This document shows positions 3,501 through 42,767 of a stretch of 64,000 nt of DNA, in pieces; position 1 is the first letter of the stretch, and each line of letters opens with the position of its first letter. The notes under the pieces were generated by a model that saw only the letters and a list, made by a program, of their open reading frames with translations, was not told the origin of the DNA and did not search any database. The position numbers were made by a program, and so were the translations under genes. The stretch is taken from positions 1-64,000 of the forward strand of contig NZ_RCWL01000007.1 in the NCBI RefSeq assembly GCF_003991195.1, written 5' to 3'. This DNA is from Gynurincola endophyticus. GTDB lineage: Bacteria; Bacteroidota; Bacteroidia; Chitinophagales; Chitinophagaceae.

Positions 3501-3857
3501 ATGAGCAATTATGAATTGATGGTGATTTTCACCCCTGTGCTTTCTGATGATGATTTTAAATCAGCGCAGAAAAAATTCACTGGCTTCATTCAGGAAAATG
3601 GCGGTGAAATTGTGCACGAAAACCCTTGGGGACTTAAATCACTGGCTTATCCTATTCAAAAGAAAACCACAGCTATCTACTGGGTTATTGAATACAAAGC
3701 GCCAACCAACCTCAACGAATCTTTAAAGATTCAATTATTACGTGACGAGAGTGTTTTACGTCACATGTTCACTGTACTTGATAAATACGCCGTTGAGTAC
3801 AATGAGAAAAAGAGAAGTGGTGTACCTACAGGAACCGAAAAAGTAGCGGAGGCTTAA
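3501..3857 (+). CDS. rpsF: 30S ribosomal protein S6
   Basis: 118 residues, with the S6 N-terminus [17 protein letters not shown], the central motif [23 protein letters not shown] and the LRHMFTVLD strand. It binds 16S rRNA as a heterodimer with S18, whose gene follows after 2 bp. This is the short S6 form without a long acidic tail. No ssb gene lies between rpsF and rpsR, as is usual for Bacteroidota. Confidence 0.98.
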
Positions 3858-6430: not shown

Positions 6431-8140
6431 TTACTGACTGGGGCGGATATCGTAAATCAATAATTGTGGATATTCTTTTCCATTCCAGCAATTAATGGTT
6501 ACTGCCGCAGCTATATCAATTTCTTTATTTTCAAGTATTGATTGATAGAGGTGTTTCAGTTTAAAACCGATACCGGTAAGCCGGTATTTTCCTTGTTGAA
6601 GTTCTAACCGGATATGTTCTTCTTTGACTAATCTGCATTGGATGATTTTTACTTGCTGGAACCTCCAGATAGGACGCATGTTATCCGGGCCAAAAGGTTC
6701 CAGACGGTCTAAAAGCGTCAGAAACTTTGTATCAATCTGCTCAAAAGTTAAAAAATCATCTATCCAAAGAATTGGAGTCAGTGAGTCTGCGTCTATGGTA
6801 CCTTGTACAACTTGTTCAAATTTTTCTACAAATGGAGTAAGTTGTTCGGGACGCATGGTTAAACCGGCGGCGAAGAAATGTCCGCCATATCCTAGCAGGT
6901 GTTCACGACAGGCTTCAATAGCGTCATGAATATTAAATCCATGAACGCTTCTGGCAGATCCGGCGATAATATTTCCCGATTGAGTGAGCACAATAGTTGG
7001 TTTATAATAATAATCAACCAGTCTGGACGCTACAATTCCTACCACTCCTTTATGCCAGTGTTCTGCATAAACAACAGTAGACTTTTGTTGAGGAAATTCT
7101 TCATTTTGTTTTAATTGTTCCAAAGCTTCTACTGTAATGAGCTGATCAGTATCTTTTCTTTCTTCGTTATCTACATGCAATTCGTTGGCGATGAGCAGGG
7201 CGGCTGCAACATCAGGAGCAATGAATAATTCTACTGCTTTACGGGCATCATCCATTCTACCGGCAGCGTTTACACGCGGTGCTACGGTAAAAACCAACTT
7301 TTCAATATCTACTTTTTTATCATCCGTTCTTTGTTGCAGTAATGCCTGGATACCAAAGTTGGGTTGTTTGTTTACTTTTTGTAATCCGAGGCTGGCCAAT
7401 ACTCTGTTTTCGCCAACAATTGAAACAATGTCGGCCGCTATGGCAGTGGTAACGAGGTCGAGATATTCTTCGAGGTGCTCAAAAGAAAGTTCATTTTTTT
7501 TGTTGTAGGCACTGATCAGCTTAAAAGCTACACCGCAACCACATAAATCTTTAAAAGGGTAATAGCAATCAGTTTGTTTTGGGTTTAGTACAGCAACAGC
7601 ATCCGGTACTGTTGCATCGGGTGTATGGTGATCGCAAATAATAAAGTCAATACCATAATTGTCTGCAAGACTTACCAGCTGGTGTGATTTTATACCACAA
7701 TCCACACTGATAATAAGGCTGAAATCATTGGCGGCGGCAAACTCAATTCCTTGTTTTGAAATACCATAACCTTCTTTGTACCGGTGGGGAATGTAGAAAT
7801 CAACCAGTTGGGGTTGATATACTTTTCTAAGGAATTTGATCATAATGGCAACGGCAGTAGTACCGTCAACATCATAGTCGCCGAAAACAAGAATTTTCTC
7901 TTTCCGATGAAATGCAAGCAGTACTCTGTCGAGTGCTTTTTGCATGTCTTTCATTAAGAAAGGATCGTGCAGATCATCTTCTGAAGGGTTAAAAAATCGT
8001 TTGGCATCAGTTAAGTTATGGATACCTCTATGTAAATAAATATTGCAGAATTCTTTAGGAATTTTTTGTTGTAATTCGGCGAACAACACATCCACTTCCT
8101 TATGGTGATAAGGTACCAGTCTCCATTCTTTATTTCGCAT
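6431..8140 (-). CDS. recJ: Single-stranded-DNA-specific exonuclease RecJ
   Basis: 569 residues, the usual RecJ length. The DHH phosphoesterase motifs are visible: DYDVDGTTA (motif I), DCGIKS, CDHHTP (the DHH), and the DHHA1 GGHFFAAGLTM glycine-rich motif. It degrades ssDNA 5'-3' in recombinational and mismatch repair. The upstream in-frame codon at 8146 is TTG; the ATG at 8140 gives the conserved start. It lies 12 bp downstream of the polyprenyl synthase gene on the same strand, so co-transcription is likely. Confidence 0.96.
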   Translation of the reverse strand: MRNKEWRLVPYHHKEVDVLFAELQQKIPKEFCNIYLHRGIHNLTDAKRFFNPSEDDLHDPFLMKDMQKALDRVLLAFHRKEKILVFGDYDVDGTTAVAIMIKFLRKVYQPQLVDFYIPHRYKEGYGISKQGIEFAAANDFSLIISVDCGIKSHQLVSLADNYGIDFIICDHHTPDATVPDAVAVLNPKQTDCYYPFKDLCGCGVAFKLISAYNKKNELSFEHLEEYLDLVTTAIAADIVSIVGENRVLASLGLQKVNKQPNFGIQALLQQRTDDKKVDIEKLVFTVAPRVNAAGRMDDARKAVELFIAPDVAAALLIANELHVDNEERKDTDQLITVEALEQLKQNEEFPQQKSTVVYAEHWHKGVVGIVASRLVDYYYKPTIVLTQSGNIIAGSARSVHGFNIHDAIEACREHLLGYGGHFFAAGLTMRPEQLTPFVEKFEQVVQGTIDADSLTPILWIDDFLTFEQIDTKFLTLLDRLEPFGPDNMRPIWRFQQVKIIQCRLVKEEHIRLELQQGKYRLTGIGFKLKHLYQSILENKEIDIAAAVTINCWNGKEYPQLLIYDIRPSQ

Positions 8141-39966: not shown

Positions 39967-40431
39967 TTAGCAGTTACCCGGGTTTCCGGTACAGCAAGGT
40001 TGATGTTGAGATACTATGGATGTGTTATTAACTGATGGGGTTATACCGCAGGCATCATTTGCCAGACAGGCAGTTCTTTTATTTTTTAAGATGAAGTGTT
40101 TGCCGTTAAAGTCGAGTTCATATCTGCCAATGGTTTCGGCCTGATATTCAACCTCTATTTCTGCTTCGCCAATACCTAATTTTTCCTCAGAGAGTTGAAT
40201 GATATTTAGTAGTTTGTCAGGTTTTAAACGATGTTCGTAATCATCTGCATTCCATAGTTGAAAGTTTACTGTTTTTTCATTTCTGATAGTGCCACCGCAA
40301 TCAATAAAATTCCTGGTTATTATTCCCACTTCTGTAACATGAAAGTGTTCAGGCACAAATATTCCGTTCTCCAGTTGAAATTCAACATTATTCAGAGAAG
40401 GCAGAATTTGTTTAATAGTTGATAGTTTCAT
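39967..40431 (-). CDS. DUF6428 family protein
   Basis: 154 residues. The pattern VEFQLENGIFVPEHFHVTEVG, FIDCGGTIRNEKTVNFQLW and DDYEHRL is that of DUF6428, which is found in Bacteroidota beside ArsR regulators and arsenic genes. The C-terminal part has several Cys (CLANDACG, then CCTGNPGNC at the end) that could bind a metal or arsenite. It is cytoplasmic by sequence. A perfect palindromic operator lies 22 bp upstream of the ATG, so it probably has its own ArsR-controlled promoter besides being downstream of arsR. Confidence 0.8.
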   Translation of the reverse strand: MKLSTIKQILPSLNNVEFQLENGIFVPEHFHVTEVGIITRNFIDCGGTIRNEKTVNFQLWNADDYEHRLKPDKLLNIIQLSEEKLGIGEAEIEVEYQAETIGRYELDFNGKHFILKNKRTACLANDACGITPSVNNTSIVSQHQPCCTGNPGNC

Positions 40432-40452
40432 ATATGTAATTTTTTTAGTAAT

Positions 40453-40468
40453 ATCGCAATATTGCGAT
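40453..40468. promoter_or_regulatory. ArsR operator in front of the DUF6428 gene
   Basis: A perfect 16-bp palindrome ATCGCAATATTGCGAT lies between the arsR stop and the DUF6428 start. It matches the site upstream of arsR in 14 of 16 positions. Confidence 0.65.
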
Positions 40469-40488
40469 GATGTGTTTCAAAAAAATGC

Positions 40489-40818
40489 TTAGCAGCATTG
40501 GTTGATATTTATATCCTGATCAAAAAAGCGGCTGAAAACTTTCCGAACTTTTTGCCATTTTTTTTCGTCGATACAGTAACAAACAGATTTTCCTTCTATG
40601 GTTCCTTTAATAATACCAATATTCTTAAGTTCTTTCAGGTGTTGTGAAATAGTAGCCTGGGCCAGGCCCAACTCATCTACTAAATCATTGCAAATACATG
40701 CTTTTTGATGAATAATGTGTTGTAGGATAGCTATTCTGGCAGGATGCCCCAGTACTTTAAAAAAAGATGCTATTTCATTCTGTTCAGCAGTATGAATAGC
40801 TGTTTTAGTTATTCCCAT
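40489..40818 (-). CDS. arsR: ArsR/SmtB family repressor
   Basis: 109 residues. A winged-helix HTH is visible (about 45-66: LVDELGLAQATISQHLKELKNIGII) with the metal motif KACICNDL just before it (Cys41, Cys43), the position used by ArsR and SmtB type-alpha3 sensors. More Cys lie in CYC and at the C-terminus (QCC). It should leave DNA when As(III), Sb(III) or another soft metal binds. It is flanked by two near-identical palindromes. No arsenite pump or arsenate reductase is in the group, so the inducing metal is uncertain. Confidence 0.92.
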   Translation of the reverse strand: MGITKTAIHTAEQNEIASFFKVLGHPARIAILQHIIHQKACICNDLVDELGLAQATISQHLKELKNIGIIKGTIEGKSVCYCIDEKKWQKVRKVFSRFFDQDININQCC

Positions 40819-40956: not shown

Positions 40957-42216
40957 CTAATCGAGAATACCTGCTAATTGTAAGCTTTTTTGTTTAAGTT
41001 TTCTTACTGCAACGTCTTCTATAATGGCTTTTGGAGCTAGTATCAGTGACGTATTGTTTTCTTTCCACCAGGTGGTGTTTTTTATTTCAGAGAAGGGGAG
41101 TACACCTACAAGATACTTTCTTTCTTTATCGGCATGCCATTCTTCAATCCATTCAAATTTATCTTTAGGGATATACTTAATGTCGTCAAAACTCAGGAAT
41201 ACTTTTACGTGATATTCGTCTGTTAATTCTAATGGGCTATGATGATAAAGCTTTTTATACTCGTATTGATACTGGTACCTTAAAGCAGATATGTCTGACA
41301 ATACAGCTGATGCGGTAGGGAAGCTACCGGCACCTTTTCCGTAGAAGAACTGTTTGTCTGCAAATCCTGATTCAATCACCACTCCATTGTATTCGTTTTT
41401 AACGAAACTCAGGTGATCATCTTTTTCAACAAATTGTGGTAACACGAAGGCTGCTACTTTACCATTGTTTAATTTTTGTGCTGATGCTACCAGTTTAATA
41501 TCGAGGTTCTTTTCTCTTGCCACCAATGCATCTGCCGCATGTATATTACGGATACCATTAAAAACAATATCGGAATATTGTGCGGTAATGCCATATGCAT
41601 GCGTTAGTAAAAAACTCCATTTGTACACTGCATCATAGCCGTCTACATCAAGTGATGGGTCTGATTCTGCAAAACCTAATTGTTGCGCAAGTAATAAAGC
41701 CGATTTGAAATCGAGTTTCTCTTCGAACATTTTGGTTAAGATAAAATTGGTTGATCCGTTTACAATAGCTTTAATAGAGTGTAACAGATCATTGTCATAG
41801 TATTCTTCGAGGTTTCTGATAACAGGGATGGAAGCACATGCCGCCGCTTCATATAAAAATGATTTGCCTGTATCTTTTTGCAGTTGTAATAAACTGTTTA
41901 AGTTTTCTGAGATCATTTTTTTTGAAGCAGATACTACATGTTTTCCGTTTTTTAAGGCAGTACTTACGATCTGAAATGCAGCATCTGCTTCATTAATTAC
42001 TTCTACTATTACATTGATAGAAGAGTCGTTTAATATTTCGTCTTTATCGGTGGTGAATAATTCATCAGGTGCATTTCTTTTTTTACCTGCATCTTTGATA
42101 CATACTTTTTTAATGGATGCTTTTAATGAAGGTGTTTGTTGTAACACTTTATACAAACCTTCACCTACTACACCAAAACCGAATAATCCTATTGTAAGTT
42201 GTTTATGATTGTCCAT
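40957..42216 (-). CDS. hom: Homoserine dehydrogenase (monofunctional, SAM-riboswitch controlled)
   Basis: 419 residues, with no kinase domain. NAD-binding GLFGFGVVG is at residues 10-18; VNGSTNFIL and AESDPSLDVDGYDAVYK carry the substrate and catalytic residues (Asp and Lys). The C-terminal third (about 330-419) is a small extra domain that may be regulatory. It reduces aspartate semialdehyde to homoserine. It is the second such activity in this window, after ThrA. It lies 18 bp after the QueF-like gene and behind a SAM-I riboswitch, so it should feed methionine synthesis. Confidence 0.94.
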   Translation of the reverse strand: MDNHKQLTIGLFGFGVVGEGLYKVLQQTPSLKASIKKVCIKDAGKKRNAPDELFTTDKDEILNDSSINVIVEVINEADAAFQIVSTALKNGKHVVSASKKMISENLNSLLQLQKDTGKSFLYEAAACASIPVIRNLEEYYDNDLLHSIKAIVNGSTNFILTKMFEEKLDFKSALLLAQQLGFAESDPSLDVDGYDAVYKWSFLLTHAYGITAQYSDIVFNGIRNIHAADALVAREKNLDIKLVASAQKLNNGKVAAFVLPQFVEKDDHLSFVKNEYNGVVIESGFADKQFFYGKGAGSFPTASAVLSDISALRYQYQYEYKKLYHHSPLELTDEYHVKVFLSFDDIKYIPKDKFEWIEEWHADKERKYLVGVLPFSEIKNTTWWKENNTSLILAPKAIIEDVAVRKLKQKSLQLAGILD

Positions 42217-42234: not shown

Positions 42235-42660
42235 TTACCATTGATCTTCTATTCCACCCCAGTCATTAAACTCTTCGTTACCGCCTCTGGCTTTCCAGTC
42301 TGAATCGATGGTGAGTTTAGAACTGATACCTCCTCTCGGATTGCAAATCATGACAAGGCGTAGTCGTTCCGGTTGGTATACATTCATTAAGTCATTGTAA
42401 ATAATATTAATGAGGCGCTCATAAGAAGCTACAATATCTCTCAGTTGAAAAACATATTGTTTGAGAGATTTTAATTCGATAACATGTTTTCCCGGATAGA
42501 AAGTTAGATAGATAACAGCAAAGTCTGGCTGCTCTTTTACTCCCAGAAAAGTAAATTCGGGAATCTTAATTTTGATCTCGTACGCTTGTTGAGACGGATT
42601 GGGTATCGCTTGCAGATAAGCAGCGTCAATGTCTTTGTACGTCTTTAATAATGTTGGCAT
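42235..42660 (-). CDS. QueF-like protein without the catalytic cysteine
   Basis: 141 residues of the T-fold. Segments IPEFTFLGVKEQPDFAVIYL (34-52), IELKSLKQYVF, YERLINIIYNDL (80-91) and NPRGGIS (107-113) match 7-cyano-7-deazaguanine reductase QueF. In B. subtilis QueF the nucleophile is Cys55 in SLCPKTGQPDF; here the same place is Gly40. Asp46 (Asp62 of QueF) and Glu81 (Glu97) are kept, while His96 is Tyr80. So the purine-type pocket may remain but nitrile reduction should not be possible. It is the first gene behind a SAM-I riboswitch and lies 18 bp before hom. I infer a function in methionine or SAM metabolism, not in queuosine synthesis; annotation as queF would be misleading. Confidence 0.8.
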   Translation of the reverse strand: MPTLLKTYKDIDAAYLQAIPNPSQQAYEIKIKIPEFTFLGVKEQPDFAVIYLTFYPGKHVIELKSLKQYVFQLRDIVASYERLINIIYNDLMNVYQPERLRLVMICNPRGGISSKLTIDSDWKARGGNEEFNDWGGIEDQW

Positions 42661-42732: not shown

Positions 42733-42767
42733 TAAAAAAAGCGCTTCCAACATCGTCAGAAGCGCTT
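42733..42767 (-). terminator. Riboswitch expression-platform terminator
   Basis: On the minus strand AAGCGCTTC/GAAGCGCTT (42767-42759 and 42747-42739) is followed by T7. It lies between the SAM-I aptamer and the QueF-like gene. The TCTGAC at its left arm (42760-42755) can instead pair with GTCAGA next to aptamer helix P1 (42819-42814), which would break the terminator. Confidence 0.88.

Follow-up and report, generated by a model that had tools for sequence, protein, structure and literature searches.

What is the function of a protein with the QueF fold that lacks the catalytic cysteine of QueF, and whose gene lies between a SAM-I riboswitch and a homoserine dehydrogenase gene? The question is raised by a locus in the window, the whole stretch of 64,000 nucleotides of Gynurincola endophyticus DNA analysed here. 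On the minus strand, from 42932 down to 40957, we found a SAM-I aptamer, a hairpin, the gene that we call queFx, a gap of 18 bp and hom. The aptamer (RF00162; 42817..42932, minus strand) was detected by cmscan with 83.9 bits and an E-value of 2.4e-18. Between it and queFx lies the intrinsic-terminator-like hairpin of the riboswitch, a 13-pair stem followed by a T-run (42739..42767, minus strand), and queFx thus has upstream of it both elements by which a gene of the SAM-I regulon is recognized. The queFx ORF (42235..42660, minus strand) codes for 141 residues and is followed by hom (40957..42216, minus strand), the next gene of the operon, which codes for homoserine dehydrogenase (Pfam PF00742, 2.6e-49). 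This arrangement, with queFx as the first gene behind the riboswitch and 18 bp before hom, had been described in a first-pass annotation of the locus, and the aptamer and terminator bear it out. No metB-like gene separates the riboswitch from queFx in the window. In the genome, metH_N-metH_C and metF sit at two other places, and no SAM-I match over the cut-off was found in the stretches read there. The last ~100 residues of Hom (about 318-419) fall outside its best family match (residues 4-317, PRK06349.1). Downstream of hom and on the same strand, the gene for an ArsR-family regulator stands beside a DUF6428 gene (39967-40818, minus strand).

Fold and key residues of the queFx protein

In a Pfam search, the queFx protein matched QueF models only (PF14489, 3.2e-18), and B. 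subtilis QueF chains come closest to it among solved proteins, in sequence as well as in structure. An AlphaFold2 model (pLDDT 83.8) shows the T-fold of QueF; its best PDB matches are QueF, with a Z-score of 14.5 and an rmsd of 3.1 over 131 residues for 4f8b_B (VIA-align), and the next structural neighbours are pterin-binding folds. The NCBIfam model TIGR03139, 'preQ(1) synthase', was also matched, with 91.6 bits and just over the cut-off of 86.9. This equivalog would label the window protein 'preQ(1) synthase', which may point to misannotation on a wider scale.

When the protein was aligned with B. subtilis QueF, the segment EFTFLGVKE-QPDFA stood opposite EFTSLCPKTGQPDFA (SLA in the record of the C55A mutant). 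This pairing places Gly40 (codon at 42541..42543, minus strand) opposite the nucleophile Cys55, in a loop shortened by one residue. When all sequences of the set were aligned automatically, the gap moved and Gly40 came to stand opposite the next residue, Pro; with either placement, the loop of the queFx protein contains no Cys. The catalytic Cys55 of QueF is thus a Gly in the window protein, as the first-pass annotation had read it. Asp46, Glu62 and Glu81 lie opposite Asp62, Glu78 and Glu97 of the B. subtilis enzyme, and the Asp62 and Glu97 of QueF are therefore kept, as also claimed earlier, in the form of Asp46 (codon at 42523..42525, minus strand) and Glu81 (codon at 42418..42420, minus strand). 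Codons 62-69 (42454..42477, minus strand) spell ELKSLKQY, which corresponds to the NADPH-binding QueF motif E(S/L)K(S/A)hK(L/Y)(Y/F/W), as defined in PMC5372742, and departs from it at the seventh position, with Q for L/Y. The position of His96 is occupied by Tyr80. This substitution, which had been listed beside the missing Cys, is real, but we rejected it as a sign of inactivity: the position is Phe in 14, Tyr in 12 and His in one of 27 Cys-containing QueFs, so that Tyr or Phe is found in 26 of the 27.

Relatives, gene neighbourhoods and the queuosine question

When 84,980 species genomes were scanned with two patterns, one that included the Gly and one that did not, 162 relatives of queFx were found, and the best 80 of them were returned. 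Their titles name Chitinophagaceae, Cyclobacteriaceae or Flammeovirgaceae, Crocinitomicaceae and Marinilabiliaceae, together with Syntrophorhabdus and other Deltaproteobacteria, Aliikangiella and Kangiellaceae, Neomarinimicrobiota and Halanaerobiales, and all of these best 80 of 162 have G/D/E/Y/E at positions 40, 46, 62, 80 and 81. Across 188 Gly proteins, Asp46, Glu62, Lys67 and Glu81 are invariant; Asp at 46 and Glu at 81 are also present in 27/27 Cys proteins. Arg82, Arg99 and Arg101 are invariant or nearly so in the 188 Gly proteins, unlike in the 27 Cys proteins, and they could hold the glutamate of a folate. A quick tree, built from 121 sequences (18 of 139 were omitted as repeat genomes or three weak hits) and carrying a long-branch warning, had 93 Gly rows on one side of a single branch, with an SH-aLRT of 99.9. 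By sequence, the Cys-less protein is a family and not a single mutant, and the tree comparison that the first-pass annotation had called for came out as a Gly clade with one outlier, L143. The QueF protein encoded there (L143:1486-1998; 36% identity) has Gly-Pro where the Cys would stand and may have lost the Cys independently; no telling neighbour was recognised among the ORFs of its locus.

Among 147 genomes of the window's family, Chitinophagaceae, eight carry queFx, the window genome included; a ninth genome over the cut-off (G032) has no match to the window protein. The proteins of the eight carriers share a mean column identity of 87%, and in all eight queFx lies directly before hom, which argues against chance. 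Over the best 80 of the 162 bacterial loci, the neighbour is hom in 23, metH in 22 (in the opposite direction at three) and thyX in 10. These do not overlap, and 55 of the 80 loci therefore have a methionine or folate neighbour, a recurrence that supports the role in methionine supply suggested for the gene at first. The hom neighbours are found only in Chitinophagaceae (21 titled so and 2 titled Bacteroidetes bacterium), and a metB-like PLP enzyme is encoded at 23 of the same 80 loci, all of the Chitinophagaceae group; 24 of the 80 have none of hom, metB, thyX and metH nearby. A SAM-I riboswitch was found upstream and on the same strand at 12/12 Chitinophagaceae loci (4 kb away in two), at 11/12 loci of the metH type and at 2/13 other loci, L072 from Halanaerobiales and L105; the Halanaerobiales genome with SAM-I before queFx has no MetF. 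At one Bacteroidales locus (L078), queFx lies between two cobalamin riboswitches (3506-3718 and 6471-6690), behind a gene for anaerobic ribonucleotide reductase. At the loci of the Syntrophorhabdales type (L060-L068 and L070), thyX is directly beside queFx in 10/10. A MetF homologue was present in 8/8 genomes of this type tested, and DHFR and the MetH activation domain were absent from 4/4 tested.

In all likelihood the queFx product does not act in queuosine synthesis, in agreement with what had been proposed from its residues. No true QueC was found in the window genome, where the best match reached 8.1e-5 over 59 of 210 positions, and hence no source of preQ0 was found there. True QueC (E 4e-61 or better) was detected in 15/60 carriers and in 0/8 of the window's family; one further genome has a partial match, and weak matches (E 4e-8 and worse) were taken, by inference, as other ATP-pyrophosphatases. 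A second QueF was sought in the window genome itself, in its family and in two cross-tabulated families. The window genome, 99.9% complete, has none, the only other matches at E <= 10 being at 0.11 and 0.61. That queFx is the sole QueF-like gene found there, that its product exceeds the NCBIfam cut-off for preQ(1) synthase and that QueC occurs in a quarter of the carriers (15/60) would suit a preQ0 reductase working without the Cys. The missing QueC in 8/8 carriers of the window's family and a gene context of methionine, not queuosine, speak against it, as does PMC5372742, which lists Cys55 as a defining residue and treats sequences without it as non-QueF. We regard a remaining preQ0 reductase activity as highly improbable.

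MetF in queFx carriers, operon arrangements and viral contigs

Comparison of genomes points to one specific step, the reduction of methylene-tetrahydrofolate. We scored MetF as absent when there was no PF02219 match over the cut-off; PF02219 misses the flavin-free Mfr of mycobacteria, a route outside this count (PMC7857596). In the family of Crocinitomix algicola, MetF is absent from 12/15 carriers and from 8/105 non-carriers (Fisher 4e-9, inflated by genome kinship), and in the MED636/Marinoscillum family from 9/13 carriers and 6/183 non-carriers, three weak other hits being taken as non-carriers (Fisher 3e-9, likewise inflated by kinship). MetF is retained in 3/15 and 4/13 carriers of the two families, respectively. 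In the window's family, MetF is present in 8/8 carriers sampled, the window genome included, and in 130/139 non-carriers, with no association between queFx and MetF absence (Fisher p = 1). This refutes the idea that queFx replaces MetF everywhere, and since MetF is kept there, queFx would be a second enzyme beside it in the window's family.

A mixed panel of 50 carriers (L037 together with 49 of the 56 loci from L060 to L115) includes 23 without MetF, and in nine of the 23 queFx is not accompanied by metH, hom or thyX. When the 50 proteins were placed on a tree, which carries a long-branch warning and a bootstrap that had not settled, the presence of MetF switched about 10 times along it; well-supported branches account for at least 5 of these changes. 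A control panel of 80 genomes (60 carriers and 20 non-carriers) includes 28 MetF-less carriers, among which the MetH activation domain is found in 25 and DHFR in 26; a 26th genome with MetH, G541, has the protein without its activation domain. The MetF-less carriers thus still have use for methyl-THF. Missing sequence is an unlikely cause of the absence of MetF, and we rejected it, because these 28 genomes keep MetH (25) and DHFR (26). One of the MetF-less carriers with both MetH and DHFR, Crocinitomix algicola 0182 (G550, L081), is a cultured strain.

The arrangement of the metH operon in the MED636/Marinoscillum family forms a series. Of six non-carriers in the panel, one (G696), whose MetF and MetH lie on separate contigs, was left out of the reading; in four of the five read, the order is SAM-I, metH_N, metH_C and metF, and metH_N was not recognised in the fifth. 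The four carriers with MetF have SAM-I, metH_N, queFx, metH_C and metF, and the three MetF-less carriers read have metH_N, queFx and metH_C. The last order is also found in Crocinitomix algicola. Three non-carriers of the Crocinitomix family were read and have metH_N and metH_C with no metF alongside, and the series is therefore seen in one family only.

A scan of IMG/VR returned 81 relatives of queFx, the best 80 of them at 48-72% identity, on contigs that are viral as classified by that collection. The five key residues (G/D/E/Y/E) are identical in all of these best 80 of 81. Within 4 kb of queFx, the same 80 loci have sahH in 29, metK in 17, at least one of the two in 34 and both in 12; in 24 loci sahH, and in 16 metK, is a same-strand direct neighbour of queFx. 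SahH and MetK catalyse two steps of the activated-methyl cycle, and the reduction of methylene-THF is the step that brings new methyl groups. A UvsX-like gene at 9 of the viral loci, an AAA/clamp-loader-like gene at 9 and a gene for the small chain of ribonucleotide reductase at 7 fit a phage origin. Among isolated phages, 19 records match viral queFx, all below 60% identity, and the annotated ones are called QueF, QueF-like, 7-cyano-7-deazaguanine reductase or GTP cyclohydrolase; no named phage isolate was counted as a bearer of queFx. A PHROG hit with the name 'GTP cyclohydrolase' was taken to reflect the shared T-fold. A DUF2452 gene occurs near queFx in 11 of the best 80 of 81 viral loci (L230-L235, L238, L243, L245, L259 and L264), adjacent and on the same strand in nine, and at seven other viral loci a 212-aa protein without a family match is encoded directly before queFx.

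A proposed T-fold methylene-tetrahydrofolate reductase

On this evidence, queFx probably codes for an NADPH-dependent, flavin-free methylene-tetrahydrofolate reductase with a T-fold. The residue roles that we propose are based on alignment. Glu81 would bind the pterin at its 2-amino-4-oxo edge, in the way that preQ0 is held by Glu97 in QueF (PMC5372742). With a proton from Asp46, 5,10-methylene-THF would open to the 5-iminium cation, whose exocyclic CH2 would receive a hydride from the NADPH at the ELKSLKQY motif, giving 5-methyl-THF for methionine synthase. The pieces of the QueF pocket would suit this reaction, with a Glu for a guanine-like edge, an acidic residue and NADPH beside an exocyclic carbon; nitrile chemistry with a covalent Cys would no longer be required, and the Cys may have gone for this reason. 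Through the riboswitch, SAM would switch the expression of queFx, together with hom in the window and with metH elsewhere. In some relatives queFx would stand in for a lost MetF, and in the window organism it would act beside MetF.

Such an enzyme would resemble several known ones in part. The queFx protein shares with unimodular QueF of the B. subtilis type the fold, Asp62, Glu97 and the NADPH motif, at 30-45% identity to Cys proteins, but it lacks the catalytic Cys, has a loop shortened by one residue, carries a C-terminal IDSDW..RGG stretch and Arg82/Arg99/Arg101, and stands in a methionine context with QueC mostly absent. The archaeosine synthase QueF-Like (QueF-L) likewise has the QueF fold and has left the nitrile-reductase role (Z 13.1 between queFx and 5jyx_G); it forms a thioimide, according to the title of entry 5jyx, whereas the queFx family has no Cys there. 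MetF (PF02219) catalyses the reaction proposed here, and in one family it belongs to the same metH operon behind SAM-I, but it is a TIM barrel of about 320 aa with FAD; the queFx protein is predicted to be a T-fold of 141 aa, and a Pfam search found no PF02219 match in it. The mycobacterial Mfr resembles our proposal in that NAD(P)H passes its hydride directly to the protonated, 5-iminium form of the folate, but it is a (beta-alpha)8 barrel (PMC11094777). According to that paper, the methylene-tetrahydropterin reductases known so far, three in number, all have the (beta-alpha)8 barrel and protonate their substrate to the 5-iminium cation, to which a hydride is added; the paper states that candidates outside Mycobacteriales were not investigated. 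In the open-licence literature, we did not find a methylene-THF reductase function named for a QueF-like protein.

Two other readings keep queFx in the methyl cycle. It may be an NADPH-dependent reductase of that cycle or of the folate pool with another substrate, such as dihydrofolate or another pterin C=N bond, or it may be an electron donor that reactivates cob(II)alamin MetH. The pterin-binding folds that follow QueF as structural neighbours are compatible with this, as are thyX beside queFx in 10 of the best 80 of 162 bacterial loci, the four tested Syntrophorhabdales-type genomes without DHFR and the halves of MetH that flank queFx on both sides in many loci. MetF is, however, what is missing from the MetF-less carriers, and with DHFR in 26/28 of them we rejected a dihydrofolate reductase; a MetH reactivator explains neither the absence of MetF nor why viral contigs have the gene next to metK and sahH. 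We consider this reading unlikely.

Less probable still, and doubtful to our minds, is a non-catalytic sensor of the folate or SAM cycle, or a partner of MetH or Hom, as the first-pass annotation had allowed for Hom. The loss of the Cys would agree with such a role, and so would the tight linkage to hom (23, in Chitinophagaceae) and metH (22, elsewhere) in the best 80 of 162 loci. Yet a sensor would have no need to conserve Asp46, Glu62, Lys67 and Glu81, which do not vary across 188 sequences, the products of hom, metH, thyX and metK/sahH are not one complex, and the fact that MetF can be absent would be left unexplained. A partner specific for Hom was rejected, because among the best 80 of 162 loci only those of the Chitinophagaceae group have hom nearby; outside it queFx is accompanied by metH or thyX, and on viral contigs by metK or sahH. 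Of the ligands and roles suggested for the pocket at first, a pterin with catalysis fits best, and regulation of or partnership with Hom is unsupported.

For the family as a whole, our reading is that it rather likely represents a previously unrecognised family of T-fold methylene-tetrahydrofolate reductases, either derived from QueF or a sister group of it. Its members would be the first such reductases without a TIM barrel and would use NADPH but no flavin. The family would be spread over several bacterial phyla, where it would have taken over from MetF more than once, and would also occur in viruses of bacteria, where metK and sahH would join it in a compact cassette for the methyl cycle. 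If this is true, a central step of one-carbon metabolism gains another enzyme, unrelated to those known, for which current annotation would give the name 'preQ(1) synthase', gaps in the methionine pathway of MetF-less bacteria would be closed, and some viral 'queF' genes would serve the supply of methyl groups and not deazaguanines in DNA or tRNA.
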